This document shows positions 32,799 to 46,096 of a DNA stretch of 64,000 bases, one piece after another. The notes below the pieces were generated by a model. The model had not been told where the DNA came from. It worked only from the letters and a program-made list of their open reading frames with translations, and searched no databases. The translations under genes and the position numbers were made by a program. Numbering within the stretch: the first letter of the stretch is position 1; the number at the start of each line of letters is the position of its first letter. This stretch comes from Desulfovibrio legallii (lineage in GTDB: Bacteria; Desulfobacterota; Desulfovibrionia; Desulfovibrionales; Desulfovibrionaceae): NCBI RefSeq assembly GCF_004309735.1, contig NZ_SIXC01000001.1, positions 149,346 through 213,345 of the forward strand, in the 5' to 3' direction.

Positions 32799-33614
32799 TC
32801 AAAGCCCCACACTGCGCCGCAGGGCTTCCACCTCGCGGCTGGTCAGAGCTCTGGCCACACCGGCGGGCAGATCTCCCAAGGCCAGAGGCCCTTGGGCCAC
32901 GCGGCACAAACGCAGGATAGTCAGAGCCAGGTCGCGGCACATGCGGCGGATCTGTCGGTTGAGCCCTTGGTGCAGCACCATGCGCAGCAACGTACCCCTG
33001 GCCTGAGGCACAGCCGATACCGTCACCGGGGCGAGCTGTTCCCCTTCGGCCAGGCGCATGCCCGCGCGCATGGCTTCCAGAGCTGCGGGCGGCACCGCGC
33101 CGCGCACCAGCACCTCATAGGTCTTGGGCTGGTGGTGGCTGGGGTGACACAGCCGCTGGGCCAGCGCGCCGTCATTGGTCAGCAGCAGCAATCCTTCAGA
33201 GAAATAGTCCAAGCGGCCCACCGGGTAGAGCCGCAGCTCGCGCAAAGCCTCAGGCAGGCAATCCAGCACGGTGGGTCGCCCTTCGGGGTCGTGCGCCGTG
33301 CAGACAACCCGCACGGGTTTGTGCAGCAGCACATAGGCGTAACTCTGGGGGGCCGCCAAGGGGCTTCCGTCCACGGCCAGCACATCCTGCGGCCTCACCT
33401 GACGGCCGGGGCTGGGTTCCGGCAGACCGTTGACAGAAACCCGGCCCGCCAGAATAAGCTCGTCCGCCTTGCGCCGGGAGCACAGACCACTGGCCGCAAT
33501 GGCCTTGTTCAGCCGCTGAGTTGCGGGCGCGTCCGGCCCGGTCATTTCTGCCTGTGCGGCCGTAGCGCCGACTCGTGTGCGCGCCGTGCGCTGCTGGTGC
33601 CCCTTCCCGTTCAT
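32799..33614 (-). CDS. rluB: RluB/RsuA-family rRNA pseudouridine synthase
   Basis: 271 aa. An N-terminal S4 RNA-binding domain (QRLNKAIAASGLCSRRKADELI) is followed by the catalytic GRLDYFSEGLLLLTND motif, whose Asp is the nucleophile, and LHQGLNRQIRRM near the C-terminus. It makes pseudouridine in 23S (RluB) or 16S (RsuA) rRNA; the exact site is not certain. ATG 33614 has AGGAG 8 nt upstream. The open frame up to 33767 is family B repeat sequence, not protein. Confidence 0.88.
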   Translation of the reverse strand: MNGKGHQQRTARTRVGATAAQAEMTGPDAPATQRLNKAIAASGLCSRRKADELILAGRVSVNGLPEPSPGRQVRPQDVLAVDGSPLAAPQSYAYVLLHKPVRVVCTAHDPEGRPTVLDCLPEALRELRLYPVGRLDYFSEGLLLLTNDGALAQRLCHPSHHQPKTYEVLVRGAVPPAALEAMRAGMRLAEGEQLAPVTVSAVPQARGTLLRMVLHQGLNRQIRRMCRDLALTILRLCRVAQGPLALGDLPAGVARALTSREVEALRRSVGL

Positions 33615-33627
33615 GTCCCAATCTCCT

Positions 33628-33667
33628 GAAAAAATACCCCAGGGCATTGCAACGTTGGAATGCCCTG
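33628..33667 (-). terminator. Terminator-like hairpin at the rluB leader (end of family B copy 2)
   Basis: On the minus strand CAGGGCATT (33667-33659) and AATGCCCTG (33648-33640) form a 9-bp stem with a 10-nt loop, then GGGTA and TTTTTT (33634-33629). The T-run runs directly into the rluB ribosome binding site. Confidence 0.6.
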
Positions 33668-33849
33668 ACGGTTGTGTAAGCAGACGCCCGCCGCGGAGGC
33701 GCCAGCGTAGCTTCAGCCGTTGCGCCGCGGGAGCCTGGCCCGTTACGACGAAAAAAGTTACGGGCAAAGACAGCAGTAGGGCTAGTTACAGATGAAGCAG
33801 CGCCGCCCTTTATTTGCGCGGTTACGTGCCGAAACGAGCGTGCCGTAAA
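33637..33849 (-). repeat. Family B repeat, copy 2
   Basis: Read on the minus strand it starts TTACGGCACGCTCGTT, contains CTGCTGTCTTTGCCCGTAAC (33776-33757), the GCCCGT/ACGGGC pair, and GTCTGCTTACACAACC, and ends in the CAGGGCATT hairpin. It is the longest and best kept of the four copies. Confidence 0.85.
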
Positions 33850-33869
33850 TTTCTTAATGTTACTATACG

Positions 33870-33886
33870 TTAAAGAAATACTTTAA
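33870..33886. promoter_or_regulatory. Palindrome TTAAAG-N5-CTTTAA
   Basis: TTAAAG, AAATA, CTTTAA in an AT-rich island that stands out from the GC-rich surroundings. The same palindrome with the same spacing is found at 37919-37935 upstream of recN. Confidence 0.5.
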
Positions 33887-33890
33887 TTGT

Positions 33891-34848
33891 ATGAAAGCCG
33901 GACACTCCACGCGGCGGCAAACCCCTGACAGCCGCGCGAAAAGACCTACCAACCATGCGACTACGCCATGCAGAGGGGAGAGCGGTGCGAGAACGCTCCC
34001 TTTTTCTTATGTGGAACCTTTTGAGAAGGGGTATCTCCCAAAGAGGAATAGAGGCCCAAGCACCACACCGAACCCTGTCCATGCATAAAAAGTCTGCGCG
34101 CGGGGATCCGCTTGAGCGCATGGTGCGCGAAGCGGGAGCCCGCGTCAAGACGCGGATTTTTGACGGCGCAGGTTTATTCGACGGAAGTCCATGTTGACGG
34201 CGTGGATTTGGGGCCGCCGTGGGTTCGGTAGGCTGTGCGACAGCCAAATCGAGCCAGATAAAAGCGCCAGGCCCGACGCTTGAAGCGTTTGGCCGGATGC
34301 GTACACGGGCCGTACAGACGGGCACAACGGGGCAAGCTCTGCGGGATGGCGGCCCTGGCTGCGTCCAAAGCGTTTACTGCAGGGACAACGCGGTTTTTTG
34401 TCTCAAAAGTTTACATAATTATCATTATGGGACATTTAAATCCGCGCCGGGGGAGCCTGCCCTTTGCCCCATCCCGCAGACCATACCTTGCCGCCAGAGA
34501 CCCCGGCGGGTTTGGACAAAAGCCAAAATCGCCGTACCGCAAGCCATCGCAAAGACAGACAAGACACAAGTACGCTGCAGCACCACAATTTTCCCCGGCT
34601 TCAGGTGGTTCAGCCCTCTGTTGTTGTGCCAGCCTTTGTGCGGCGGGACACAGCCATGCTGTCGTACGCATGCCCTCTGAACACAGTCCAGCCGTCCCCT
34701 TTGCCGGCACCGTCCGCATTGGTGGCGCATACGCCCCCCGTCCTGCCTGCGGCAACGGCCACACCCCAAGGGCCGCGCCACACTGGGCTTGCCCACGGCG
34801 CGGCTCTGACGTACAACACAGGCCAACGTCTTACGCCGAGGTATGTTC
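33891..34848. other. About 950 bases without a convincing gene
   Basis: Short overlapping frames exist on both strands but none has a good ribosome binding site, recognisable motif or steady coding pattern. Hairpins are visible: GGGAG...CTCCC followed by TTTTT at about 33976-34006, and CCGCGT/ACGCGG followed by ATTTTT at 34140-34161. A candidate promoter, TTGTCT-16-TATCAT, lies at 34398-34425. It may hold small RNAs or eroded genes. Confidence 0.5.
34398..34431 (+). promoter_or_regulatory. Weak promoter with Fur-like AT-rich site
   Basis: TTGTCT (34398-34403), 16-bp spacer, TATCAT (34420-34425), overlapping ATAATTATCATTAT (34414-34427), which resembles a degenerate Fur hexamer array. It is more than 400 nt from rdgC. 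Confidence 0.25.
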
Positions 34849-35472
34849 ATGGGCTTTGCCAACAGCGCCTGCAGTTTTACCCGTTTCCGCATTTTGGATC
34901 CCGTGCCCGCCGAGCTCTGGCCGCAGATTCCGGACAAGCTCAAGCAGTACGCCATGCAGGATATCGACAATATCCCGGAGCCGCAGGCTTGCGGCTGGGT
35001 CAGCTTTGAAGACATGCTGGACACCCAGTGGACCACGGCCACACCCCACAAGGGGGCGTACCTGGTCTTTTCTCTGCGGCTGGACACGCGCCGCATCCCT
35101 GCCGGAGTTGTCAAAAAGCACCTGGCCCTGGCCCTTAAAGAGGAAAAAAACCGGCTCCGCGACCAGGGCAAGACCTTTATTGCGCGTGAACGCAAAAAAG
35201 AACTCAAGGAACAGGTCATGCTGCGCCTGCGGCAGCGTTTTTTGCCTGTACCGGCGGAATTCAACGTACTTTGGGCCACGGACAAAAACGAAATCTGGTT
35301 CGCCTCCACCCAGGGCAAGATGATCGAATTGTTTATGGAAGAATTCCTCAAGACTTTTGATCTGCACCTGGAGCAGCTTACGCCCTACAATCTGGCGGCC
35401 AGCCTGCTGGACGAAGACAGCCTCATCCGCCTGGACCAGCTTGAAGCCACCCAGTTCGCCCCACAGGCGTAA
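34849..35472 (+). CDS. rdgC: RdgC-like recombination-associated protein
   Basis: A 207-aa protein matching the RdgC family: FTRFRILDPVP start, GWVSFEDMLD, YLVFSLRLDTRRIP, a charged helix with ALKEEKNRLRDQGK, and LWATDKNEIWFASTQGKMIELF. RdgC binds dsDNA as a ring and restrains RecA. The usual E. coli-type protein is about 300 aa, so this is a short version lacking the distal region. ATG 34849 (MGFANSA) was preferred to 34843 because GAGG lies 7 nt upstream. Confidence 0.85.
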   Translation: MGFANSACSFTRFRILDPVPAELWPQIPDKLKQYAMQDIDNIPEPQACGWVSFEDMLDTQWTTATPHKGAYLVFSLRLDTRRIPAGVVKKHLALALKEEKNRLRDQGKTFIARERKKELKEQVMLRLRQRFLPVPAEFNVLWATDKNEIWFASTQGKMIELFMEEFLKTFDLHLEQLTPYNLAASLLDEDSLIRLDQLEATQFAPQA

Positions 35473-36022: not shown

Positions 36023-37060
36023 ATGAGCGCCCTGCCCTCCTCTCCCGTCCGCAGCCGTTCCGCCTGGGGCGATGTGGCCCGCAACACCCTGCGCAAAACC
36101 CTCTGGATGTTGCTGGTGCTTTGGGGCATTACCATCATCAGCTTCTGGGTCATCCACCTGGCCCCCGGTTCGCCCACGGATATGGAAACTACCCTCAACC
36201 CCCTGGCCGGCGCGGCTGCACGTCAGCGGCTGGAGGCCCTCTACGGGCTGGACCGCCCTCTGTACGTGCAGTACTGGGACTGGCTGGTGCGCCTGTTGCA
36301 CCTGGATTTCGGCAATTCCATGTCCGCCGATGGCAGGCCCGTGCTGACCAGAATTCTGGAGCGTCTGCCCCTTACCGTGGGCATGAACCTGGTTTCTCTG
36401 CTCCTTACCCTGGCCATCGCCATTCCCGTGGGCATTATTTCGGCCTGCCGCCGCAATTCCCTGCTGGACCGCACGGTGACCGTTCTGGTTTTTCTGGGTT
36501 TCGCCATGCCCTCTTTCTGGTTGGCCCTGCTGCTCATGCTCTTTTTCGGCATTGATCTGCAATGGCTGCCCATTTCCGGCCTCACTTCCATGAACTACGC
36601 CCAAATGGGCCCCTGGGAGCGCTTCTGCGACCTGGCCCGGCATCTGGCCCTGCCTATTACGGTCTATACTGTGGGCGGGCTTGCGGGCATGTCCCGGTAT
36701 ATGCGGGCCTGCATGCTGGAAGTGCTGCGGCAGGACTACATCCTTACCGCCAGGGCCAAAGGGCTGAGCGAAACCGCCGTGGTCCTGCGCCACGCTCTGC
36801 GCAACGCCCTTTTGCCGGTCATTACCCTGCTGGGTCTTTCCGTGCCGGGGCTCATCGGCGGCAGCGTCATCATCGAGTCCATCTTTGCCTTGCCCGGCCT
36901 GGGCCAGCTTTTTTATGCCGCCGTCATGGCCCGCGACTACACCATGATCATGGGCAACCTGGTGTTGGGCGCGGTGCTCACCCTGGCGGGCAATCTGCTG
37001 GCTGACGTTTGTTACGGCCTGGCCGATCCGCGCATCCGCAGCGCCGGGGAAGGCAGCTGA
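36023..37060 (+). CDS. ABC transporter permease, DppB/OppB family
   Basis: 345 aa with about six membrane helices. The N-terminus ([25 protein letters not shown]) and [15 protein letters not shown] are typical of dipeptide/oligopeptide/nickel permeases; the EAA loop is [20 protein letters not shown]. It forms a heterodimer with the DppC-type permease encoded 1 nt downstream. No binding protein or ATPase gene is adjacent, so the substrate is unknown. Confidence 0.9.
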
Positions 37061-37061
37061 C

Positions 37062-37898
37062 ATGTGCCCCGTCGTCCTGAAAAAACTGCTGGGCCGTAAC
37101 CTCATGCTGACGCTGGGGCTCATTTTGGTGCTGGGCATGTCCCTGGCCGCCCTGCTGGCCCCCTGGCTGGCCCCTTACAATCCCGATGCCCTGCACCTGG
37201 ACCATATTCTGGAGCCGCCTTCCGCCCTGTTCTGGCTGGGCACGGACCGGCTGGGGCGAGACGTTTTTTCCCGTCTGCTCTTCGGCGGGCGCATTTCCCT
37301 CTGGGTAGGCTTTGTGGCCGTGGGCATTTCGGTCAGCATCGGCACGGTGCTGGGTCTGGTGAGCGGTTATTTTCGCGGCTGGGTGGATGAGGTGGTCATG
37401 CGCGCCGTGGATATTATGCTCTGCTTCCCCTCCTTTTTTCTCATCCTGGCGGTCATTGCCTTTCTGGAACCAAGCCTTACCAATATAATGGTCGTTATCG
37501 GGCTCACCTCCTGGATGGGCGTCACCAGGCTGGTGCGGGCCGAGGCCCTCAGCCTGCGCCAAAGGGAGTTTGTGGATGCGGCCCGCCTGGCGGGTACGCC
37601 CGCCTGGCGCATATTGCTGCGGCATATCCTGCCCAACGCCTTGGCGCCCGTGCTCATCACGGCCACCCTGGGCGTGGCCGGGGCCATCCTGGTGGAATCC
37701 AGTCTGAGTTTTCTGGGCCTGGGCGTACAGCCGCCTACGGCCAGCTGGGGCAACATGCTCATGGACGGCAAATCCGTCATCGAAACCGCGCCCTGGCTTT
37801 CCGTCTATCCCGGGCTGGCTATTTTGGTCACGGTACTGGGCTATAATCTTTTGGGCGAAAGCCTGCGCGACCTTAGCGACCCGCGCCTGCGCCGCTGA
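37062..37898 (+). CDS. ABC transporter permease, DppC/OppC family
   Basis: 278 aa. An N-terminal helix, then APYNPDAL, FWLGTDRLGRDVFSRLLFGG (the DppC signature), the EAA loop AARLAGTPAWRILLRHILPN, and SLSFLGLGVQPPTASWGNM near the C-terminus. It pairs with the upstream DppB-type protein. The gene is followed by the AT-rich recN leader. Confidence 0.91.
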   Translation: MCPVVLKKLLGRNLMLTLGLILVLGMSLAALLAPWLAPYNPDALHLDHILEPPSALFWLGTDRLGRDVFSRLLFGGRISLWVGFVAVGISVSIGTVLGLVSGYFRGWVDEVVMRAVDIMLCFPSFFLILAVIAFLEPSLTNIMVVIGLTSWMGVTRLVRAEALSLRQREFVDAARLAGTPAWRILLRHILPNALAPVLITATLGVAGAILVESSLSFLGLGVQPPTASWGNMLMDGKSVIETAPWLSVYPGLAILVTVLGYNLLGESLRDLSDPRLRR

Positions 37899-37917: not shown

Positions 37918-37936
37918 TTTAAAGTTATACTTTAAA
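37918..37936. promoter_or_regulatory. Palindromic operator candidate upstream of recN
   Basis: TTTAAAGT (37918-37925), TAT, ACTTTAAA (37929-37936): perfect 8-bp arms, 22 nt before the recN ATG and overlapping a possible -10 TATACT. It contains TTAAAG-N5-CTTTAA, also present at 33870. Confidence 0.5.
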
Positions 37937-37958: not shown

Positions 37959-39566
37959 ATGCTGGAATATCTGCGCATTCGCAACCTGGCCCTCATTGAG
38001 GACATGGAGCTGGAATTTGCCCCCGGCATGAACGTGCTGACTGGTGAAACCGGGGCCGGCAAGAGCTTTATTCTTAAAGCCTTGGGTTTTCTGCTGGGCG
38101 ACAGATTGGCGGCGGACATGGTGCGCCCAGGGGCCGAGCGCGCCCAGGTGGAAGCCCTGTTCAGTCAGCCGGAACAGGATCTGATCCTGCGCCGCGAACT
38201 TCTGGCCGAAAGCGGCCGCAGTCGGCTCTACATCAATGACAGTCTGCGCTCCCAGGAAAGCCTGCGTGACCTGCGCGACCGTCTGGTCAGCCACACCAGC
38301 CAGCACGCCCAGCAAAAACTTTTGCAGCCGGCCGTGCAGGCCCGCCTGTTGGAACACGGCCTTGCCGACCCCACCCTGCCCACCCAAAGGGACGCCCTTT
38401 TGGAAGACCTGCGCCGCTTGGCCGCGCAACGGGAAGCCCTGCGCCAAAAACAGGCCGGCCTGGCCGAGCGTCGCGAACTGCTGGAGATGCAGCAGCAGGA
38501 AATCGCCAAGGTGGCTCCGGAGCCCGGCGAGGAAGAGCGCCTGGAATCGCTGCGAGCCCAGGTCCGCCAGGCGGAACGGCGGCGTGAGGACCACGAACGG
38601 GCCCTTGCCCTGCTCCACGGCGACGAAGGGGAAGGTCTGCTGGACCAGCTTGTGCGGCTGGAAAAGTTGCTGGACCATCTAGCCGAAGGGGACGCAGGTT
38701 GTAAGGCCACGGCTGAAACCGCAGCGAGCCTGCGTGAACAATTGACGGAGCTGGCCCGACGTCTGCGACGCGGCCCCCTGGATGATGACCTGCCCGATCT
38801 GGATAAGGTGGAGGAACGCCTTTTTACCCTGGCTCAGCTCAAGCGCAAGTTGCACCGGACCTTGCCGGAAATCCTTGCCTTGCAAGATGAGATAGGCCAG
38901 AACCTTTCCTTTCTGGATGTCTGTGCCCTGGATCTGCACCGTCTGGATACGGAGGAGGCCGCTCTGGCCGTACGTCTGCACGGTGTGCTGGAGCGCCTGC
39001 GCCCCGCACGTCGCGCCGCCGCTGCAGCAACGGTGCGGCGGCTGGAAGAGGAGCTGCGCGGTCTGGGCTTTTCCGACCAGGTGCGCGTGCTGGCGGAATT
39101 TACGCCTCAGGAGGTCTGGCCCGGCCTTCATGATGAGCGCGGACGCATCCTCTGGGCCCCCAACCCCGGCCAACCGCCCCAGCCCCTGGACAAGATTGCC
39201 TCCGGCGGCGAACTTTCCCGGTTCTTGCTGGCGCTCGCCGGTGTGCGCGGCGAAGAGGCGGAAGGGGCCACCTTTATTTTTGATGAAGTAGACGCGGGCG
39301 TGGGCGGGCTTACCCTCAACAAGCTGGCGGAAAAACTTTCTGCTCTGGCCGCCAGTCGGCAAATGCTGCTGATCACCCACTGGCCGCAGCTGGCCGTCCG
39401 GGCCCGCAAGCATTTTCAGATCGTCAAAACCGTACGCGCAGGGGCCACCTTCACCCTCTGTGCGCCCCTGGACCCGGCGGCCCGCCACGCGGAGCTGGCC
39501 CGCATGGCCGGCGGCGGCCCTCAGGGGGAAGCCCTGGCCCGCAGCCTGGAAGCTGCGGCGGGATAA
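37959..39566 (+). CDS. recN: DNA repair protein RecN
   Basis: A 535-aa SMC-like ATPase acting in double-strand break repair. Walker A is LTGETGAGKSFILKAL (residues 27-42), the ABC signature SGGELSRFLLALA and Walker B ATFIFDEVDAGVGG follow a long coiled-coil middle (about 160-350). The order matches full-length RecN. The palindrome and AT-rich tract upstream suggest damage-type regulation, but no E. coli-type LexA box is visible. Confidence 0.95.
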   Translation: MLEYLRIRNLALIEDMELEFAPGMNVLTGETGAGKSFILKALGFLLGDRLAADMVRPGAERAQVEALFSQPEQDLILRRELLAESGRSRLYINDSLRSQESLRDLRDRLVSHTSQHAQQKLLQPAVQARLLEHGLADPTLPTQRDALLEDLRRLAAQREALRQKQAGLAERRELLEMQQQEIAKVAPEPGEEERLESLRAQVRQAERRREDHERALALLHGDEGEGLLDQLVRLEKLLDHLAEGDAGCKATAETAASLREQLTELARRLRRGPLDDDLPDLDKVEERLFTLAQLKRKLHRTLPEILALQDEIGQNLSFLDVCALDLHRLDTEEAALAVRLHGVLERLRPARRAAAAATVRRLEEELRGLGFSDQVRVLAEFTPQEVWPGLHDERGRILWAPNPGQPPQPLDKIASGGELSRFLLALAGVRGEEAEGATFIFDEVDAGVGGLTLNKLAEKLSALAASRQMLLITHWPQLAVRARKHFQIVKTVRAGATFTLCAPLDPAARHAELARMAGGGPQGEALARSLEAAAG

Positions 39567-46002: not shown

Positions 46003-46096
46003 GGAGGCGTTTCGTCACCGGTGTGGCGCCCGGTCTTCAAAACCGGTGGCAGGCTTTACGGTCTGCGGTAGGTTCGACCCCTATGCGCCTCCGCCA
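46003..46096 (+). tRNA. selC: tRNA-Sec (anticodon TCA)
   Basis: 94 bases including an encoded CCA. The 8-bp acceptor stem pairs GGAGGCGT with GCGCCTCC (one G-T), the anticodon stem CCGGT/ACCGG encloses CTTCAAA with anticodon TCA at 46037-46039, the long variable arm follows, and the T-loop is GGTTCGACCCC. The layout matches E. coli selC. It decodes in-frame UGA as selenocysteine together with SelB and a SECIS element; selA, selB and selD are not in this window. Confidence 0.93.

Follow-up and report, generated by a model that had tools for sequence, protein, structure and literature searches.

The window, which is the whole stretch of 64,000 nucleotides of Desulfovibrio DNA analysed here, contains a gene for the DNA repair protein RecN that is preceded by two permease genes and, further upstream, by a gene-poor gap (33615-34842) bounded by a pseudouridine synthase gene and an rdgC-like gene. 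The features are as follows.

32799-33614, minus strand: pseudouridine synthase gene (called rluB), border of the gap (PF00849, E = 4.2e-21; S4 domain)
33640-33852, plus strand: one copy of a dispersed intergenic repeat of about 210 bp (similarity search, 79 genomes of the genus)
33870-33886, no strand assigned: other exact copy of the palindrome, where the dispersed repeat ends in worn form; without conservation among the relatives compared
34408-34435, minus strand: dif, the XerCD site for chromosome dimer resolution at the replication terminus, ATGTCCCATAATGATAATTATGTAAACT (25 of 28 bases as in D. vulgaris dif)
34788-34828, plus strand: second conserved noncoding stretch, just 5' of the rdgC-like gene (84-91% in at least six relatives: G005, G013, G023, G044, G051 and G065)
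34843-35472, plus strand: rdgC-like gene (recombination-associated protein RdgC family), border of the gap (PF04381, E = 7.2e-7, 29.2 bits against a cut-off of 25)
36023-37898, plus strand: two ABC transporter permease genes, of the oppB/dppB and oppC/dppC types, immediately 5' of recN (PF00528, PF19300, PF12911)
37919-37935, no strand assigned: operator-like inverted repeat of 17 bp, TTAAAG-N5-CTTTAA, between the dppC stop and the recN start
37959-39566, plus strand: recN (TIGR00634, E = 8.7e-101, 338.6 bits, below the curated cut-off of 407.85)

The NCBIfam models for RdgC match the rdgC-like gene far under their cut-offs.

A scan of the window confirmed that the palindrome TTAAAG-N5-CTTTAA, as claimed in a preliminary description of this DNA, is present in exact form at two places, 33870-33886 (TTAAAGAAATACTTTAA) and 37919-37935 (TTAAAGTTATACTTTAA), the latter ahead of recN. 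When up to two mismatches are allowed, the window has 4 matches against 0.64 expected, a number reached in none of 100 shuffles. The whole genome of the host (2,675,015 bases in 35 contigs) has these two exact copies and no third, and each of its four copies with one mismatch lies within a mechanically listed ORF; in this list of host sites with at most one mismatch, no copy stands ahead of any regulator gene. Neither of the two exact copies falls inside a recognised gene. The one at 33870 overlaps just the final codons of a mechanical minus-strand ORF of 151 aa, for which no homologue was found among the relatives' loci searched. Judged by sequence comparison, the two palindromes are different in kind: the copy at recN is real and conserved, the copy at 33870 lacks conservation in the relatives compared.

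For the comparison, 79 Desulfovibrio genomes including the host were searched. recN was above threshold in 62 of them and the loci were taken from the best 30 matches, those of more distant members of the genus coming from a separate recN search; gene order around recN was also compared in relatives. Most recN matches come from Desulfovibrio or Desulfovibrionaceae. The DNA ahead of recN was read in 96 loci, which represent 78 distinct recN N-termini, 77 of them without N in the last 90 bases. In these 77 distinct upstream regions the best match to the palindrome has no mismatch in 10, one in 5 and two in 5. At most one mismatch is thus seen in 15 of 77 regions, against 0.045 expected from shuffles of the same DNA; for at most two mismatches the expectation is 0.53. 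The recN palindrome is conserved far above chance, and therefore withstands the doubt, voiced with the first description, that it might occur at chance frequency and without conservation ahead of recN. The remaining 57 regions have no palindrome even at two mismatches, and many palindrome-less regions have almost zero intergenic space. Two of the one-mismatch cases (L045 and L051) straddle or adjoin the end of the upstream gene, lie outside the main clade described below and may be due to chance.

What is conserved are the arms. An alignment of 16 sites with at most two mismatches (L017, L045, L051 and L180 left out) gave 1.80 bits per column in the arms, a value that is partly due to construction since the rows were selected for at most two mismatches, compared to 0.97 in the spacer, 0.39 in the left flank and 0.54 in the right flank. 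Because these rows had been selected for having the motif, the 14 members of the main clade were also aligned blind to it, the motif-less member included. The mean majority share was then 0.92 in the 12 arm columns and 0.57 in the 58 other columns, and the four sub-lineages of this clade are just 32-46% identical to each other over the whole 75 nt. This is the pattern of an operator: two arms kept at one gene, with drifting flanks. The common extended form of the site is TTAAAGTNNNACTTTAA.

In a RecN tree built on 180 aa, 11 of the 15 carriers fall into one supported clade (98/99) of 14 rows, which in addition contains two rows with a worn palindrome and one without. The host and G033 carry the palindrome, yet they are outside this clade. 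The carrier label takes 6 changes on the tree, compared to 14.0 when it is shuffled; since the carriers share kinship, they do not represent 15 independent cases. In G048, the closest relative of the host (recN 91% over 180 aa), the palindrome is reduced to a worn form, TTAAAGCAATACTTGAG.

From these sequence comparisons we consider it probable that 37919-37935 is an operator-like repeat through which recN is controlled in one Desulfovibrio lineage. The regulator would be a dimeric protein that holds the DNA by both TTAAAG arms. The palindrome ends 23 nt ahead of the recN ATG and the arms lie 11-34 nt ahead of it, a position that should fall on the promoter or on the very start of the transcript. 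The bound protein would then repress recN, activation being less likely, and a signal would presumably act through it.

This conservation could have another cause. The arms may be kept as an AT-rich -10 region with its flanking tracts, that is, as a core promoter to which no dimeric protein binds. Indeed, TATACT spans the spacer and the right arm in the window, and four motif-negative species have a promoter motif like that of recA (see below) in place of the palindrome. On the other hand, one simple scan detected no consensus sigma-70 site at the palindrome, and the spacers of the relatives do not keep TATAAT-like letters whereas both mirror arms are kept, which makes this explanation unlikely. 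A sigma-28 promoter at recN was discarded because, by eye, the spacing is unfit. The palindrome could also work in the RNA, as a leader hairpin that tunes translation or decay. Its distance from the start codon and a possible short stem with a 3-nt loop would suit such a function, but by themselves the six motifs tried have folding energies of -1.1 to -2.0 kcal/mol, the 65-nt leader is not stabler than its shuffles (z = -0.88; 35 of 200 were as good) and the arm changes are uncompensated, with CATTAA facing TTAAAG in G041 and G043 and CTTTAG in G013. We regard the hairpin as quite unlikely.

The second palindrome lies in the gene-poor gap, which also holds dif. The dif site of D. vulgaris Hildenborough is a 28-mer, ATGTCCCATAATGTAAATTATGTTAACT, as given in the accessible text of PMC2731167, and 34408-34435 shares 25 of its 28 bases; the window site differs in three bases and lies between the pseudouridine synthase and rdgC-like genes. 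The next best match in 789 kb of the host genome has 18 of 28. The same number, 18 of 28, is found with dif of E. coli, which equals chance matches in the same DNA. The stretch from about 34403 to 34438 is nearly invariant in at least 50 other genomes of the genus (79 searched). Of 46 loci scanned for dif, 21 match at all 28 bases and 37 at 25 or more; several of these loci come from one genome twice, 13 were chosen because they match this stretch, and the 9 others include some that may not reach the place. On the contig that carries the window (C1), most of the DNA left of dif has positive GC skew and most of that to its right negative skew. The polarity of KOPS (GGGNAGGG) flips at the same point (left +61/-24, right +4/-32). 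With a single 28-mer like that of a near relative at the switch of both GC skew and KOPS, 34408-34435 is the XerCD dif site of the host genome. Among the relatives, 11 loci cover the gap, and in these dif precedes the rdgC-like gene by 189-487 bp. It fixes the replication terminus of the host and explains the gene-poor gap better than a hidden transcript. A Fur-type operator had been considered for the AT-rich stretch near 34415; this stretch is dif.

As the two palindromes are near dif, we tested whether TTAAAG-N5-CTTTAA labels the surroundings of dif as a target for a terminus organiser. Such a system with a short palindrome is matS/MatP of E. coli, and in the host alone the likeness extends to clustering near dif. 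Five of the six host sites with at most one mismatch are on the dif-bearing contig, which makes up 10.8% of the genome, as are 7 of 8 sites of a 14-base form with at most two mismatches. The full palindrome with at most two mismatches has 13 matches on this contig (289 kb) compared to 3 in 500 kb sampled elsewhere, ranking first of 60 permuted palindromes (P = 7e-4), but the host counts include both founding sites. In a second species, G042, the enrichment does not go beyond base composition: 16 sites compared to 4, with 496 compared to 254 for permuted palindromes (P = 0.14, rank 5 of 60), in a terminus that is AT-richer (58.0 versus 60.8% GC). Furthermore, 7 of 60 half-sites outscore that of the palindrome in the terminus of G021, the palindrome ranks only 176 of 21,084 when terminus-enriched palindromes are ranked de novo, and MatP is present in 0 of 79 genomes, with a positive E. 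coli control. Over the whole genome, sites with at most two mismatches number 92 in G021 and 65 in G042. A matS-like role is therefore very improbable: it looked strong in the host and failed in G042 and in the de novo ranking.

The palindrome at 33870 stands at the end of the dispersed repeat. At least four further long copies of this repeat, at 78-80%, are found in the host on C2, C3 and C5 (two), and partial copies are present in the host and in relatives as well, so that 33640-33852 is one of several similar copies. Many of the other copies end in a hairpin, CCTTTGAGAATAC..TATTCTCAAAGG, followed by TAATCTGCTC (17 rows, not all so). At about the place of this terminal hairpin the copy in the window has TTTCTTAATG..CGTTAAAGAAA, and the predicted fold pairs the two (z = -1.04, not significant). 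From this pairing, half of the 33870 palindrome probably belongs to what is left of the hairpin at the end of the repeat. No palindrome with at most two mismatches was found in the 140 bases examined at each of 17 other repeat ends; of 69 rows, these 17 extend that far, and they come from host and relatives, some from the same place. Nor is the palindrome present in the gaps of 11 relatives, including the closest one, G048; the best match has 3 mismatches in one of them and 4-5 in the rest. A twelfth locus (L207) ends short of the gap, so that the comparison comprises 11 gaps. The 33870 palindrome stands outside recN control and most likely arose at a worn repeat end about 0.5 kb from dif; its match to the palindrome at recN looks like a coincidence.

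The idea of an operator shared by both sites, marking an unannotated regulated transcript at 33890, is not supported by these results, as the relatives' gaps compared have no counterpart of the 33870 site, which stands at a worn repeat end. In accordance, a search of the whole window with Rfam at the gathering threshold yielded two tRNAs only and nothing at 33890, and the 65-aa ORF at 33891 has no homologue in the relatives' loci searched; we reject both the shared operator and the transcript. A tRNA-Sec gene (selenocysteine) is at 46003-46096 of the window.

The least probable of the explanations considered is that both palindromes are LexA/SOS boxes, that is, operators of the host LexA homologue that mark a DNA-damage regulon. 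recN belongs to the classic SOS genes, the paired arms are of the type bound by dimers and the host encodes a LexA with both domains. A LexA box ahead of recN would likewise be an inverted repeat beside the start of the gene; known LexA boxes have a sequence unlike the recN palindrome. In a profile search of 41 genomes of the genus with LexA_DNA_bind (PF01726), 11 had any match, 5 had one above the cut-off and only the host had a strong one (on C12, E = 8.9e-15); there was no strong match in the 40 relatives searched. This bears out the notion of a LexA-poor lineage. The matches in the ten other genomes are weak (E = 3.5e-5 to 9.7e-4, in ORFs of 94 to 534 aa) and probably represent other winged-helix proteins. 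Five other carriers of the recN palindrome (G013, G017, G021, G023 and G033) were part of this search, and none of the five exceeds the cut-off: the matches in G017 and G021 stay below it, and the other three have none.

Moreover, the same box is not found ahead of recA and lexA. In the 150 bp ahead of recA in 30 loci, from 39 genomes with RecA, the closest match has 3 mismatches (2 loci with 3, 7 with 4, 12 with 5, 8 with 6 and 1 with 7); the host recA has 4, and the 300 bp ahead of the host lexA come no closer than 5. With recA unmarked and all other host sites with at most one mismatch in ORFs (uvr and ruv genes being covered through this genome-wide list), a DNA-damage regulon as proposed in the preliminary description finds no support. 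Nor does the proposed binding of a LexA homologue, the sole clear LexA being that of the host. LexA is thus unlikely to be the owner of the recN palindrome. The host lexA (L085, C12:83661-84245) is adjoined by a DUF2924 gene, and by eye a recombinase-like ORF starts beside it (Pfam gave nothing in 48 residues).

If LexA does not bind the putative recN operator, another repressor may do so. The host genome also encodes three repressors, one on C7 and two on C8, that combine a CI/XRE-type HTH with Peptidase_S24. In the 300 bp ahead of their genes the closest palindromes have 5, 4 and 2 mismatches, the copy with 2 mismatches being an AT-rich stretch at -293. According to the accessible text of PMC13148647, Francisella, which lacks LexA, uses the S24 phage-type repressor FddR on the palindrome GTG-N11-CAC; UmuDAb of Acinetobacter is described in the accessible part of PMC3978071 as an S24 phage-like repressor in a LexA-less bacterium. 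The likeness to these systems, as far as described there, consists in the LexA-poor lineage, the three CI/XRE-S24 genes of the host and the palindromic target, but FddR marks its own promoter region whereas the S24 genes of the host are unlinked to the motif. In view of FddR in a LexA-less host, we take the S24 class as a lead and nothing beyond; a candidate for the protein that would bind at recN is, as such systems in other LexA-less bacteria suggest, a phage-like repressor of the S24 type.

Inspection of the 30 recA upstream regions revealed a different, promoter-like motif. TTGCCTTG-N8..12-TTTGCTA is present in 10 of them, in 11 if one base is left free at two places, and loosely in 21. 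The pattern TTGCC[AT]TG-N8..12-TTTG[CG]TA, which was defined after these genes had been inspected, has 16 matches in 3,163,509 bases, in which recA and recN loci are over-represented by construction and about 2 Mb are bulk genome: 11 are at recA, 5 at recN and none elsewhere. The five recN matches correspond to three distinct genomes, G002, G028 and G025. The motif is at recA in L127, L128, L130-L132, L143, L150-L152, L155 and L156, and at recN in L010, L013 and L015. A slightly looser form adds a fourth recN (G044); together they make up a single clade (96/87). Either inheritance of a strong extended -10 promoter from a common ancestor or genuine co-regulation through this element may account for the motif.

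It is tempting to combine both observations, although this is a tentative proposal that we hold to be possible at best: a lineage-specific damage or stress repressor acting on TTAAAGTNNNACTTTAA at recN, and a shared non-LexA promoter element, TTGCCTTG-N8..12-TTTGCTA, at recA and at the recN of a sister clade, could together form a LexA-independent repair circuit in sulfate reducers. How DNA-repair genes are controlled in bacteria without LexA is an open question, for which the recN site gives a testable handle that is direct in both gut and environmental Desulfovibrio; a 60-bp fragment may serve to fish out the regulator. The recA/recN motif of the sister clade is a second handle on repair-gene control without LexA. 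In the literature covered, which left subscription papers mostly outside and included the accessible parts of PMC4672049, PMC2731167, PMC3025954, PMC3840689 and PMC13148647, neither this recN palindrome nor the absence of LexA in Desulfovibrio is reported.

It should be mentioned that the palindrome also occurs at other places in relatives. It lies inside a HIT gene in the host (L004, 1 mismatch) and, in exact form, in G021 (L100), L091 and L103; the HIT domain was recognised by Pfam in L004 and L100, which are 32 kb (G000, the host) and 35 kb (G021) from dif. This copy is coding and was found through selection for the motif, and is therefore not counted as evidence. Exact palindromes were looked for in 17 relatives, of which 11 have copies, 18 sites altogether: 4 are at recN, 10 fall within ORFs or at their ends, and the remaining 4 (L096, L101, L104 and L158) are intergenic at other places. 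In L104 (G017, exact) and in L107 (G013, 1 mismatch) the palindrome is, by eye, flanked by a stop codon on one side and a terminator-like hairpin on the other. In L101 it is located 12 bases 3' of the recN stop of G006, a genome without an upstream copy. For L096, L101, L104, L107 and L158, AT-rich DNA, the only account offered, may be the explanation. L158, from the same genome G006, has its exact copy at 1568-1584 between gatB and phoH, 68 bp ahead of the phoH start, and is the sole one of the four other intergenic copies that is placed like an operator.
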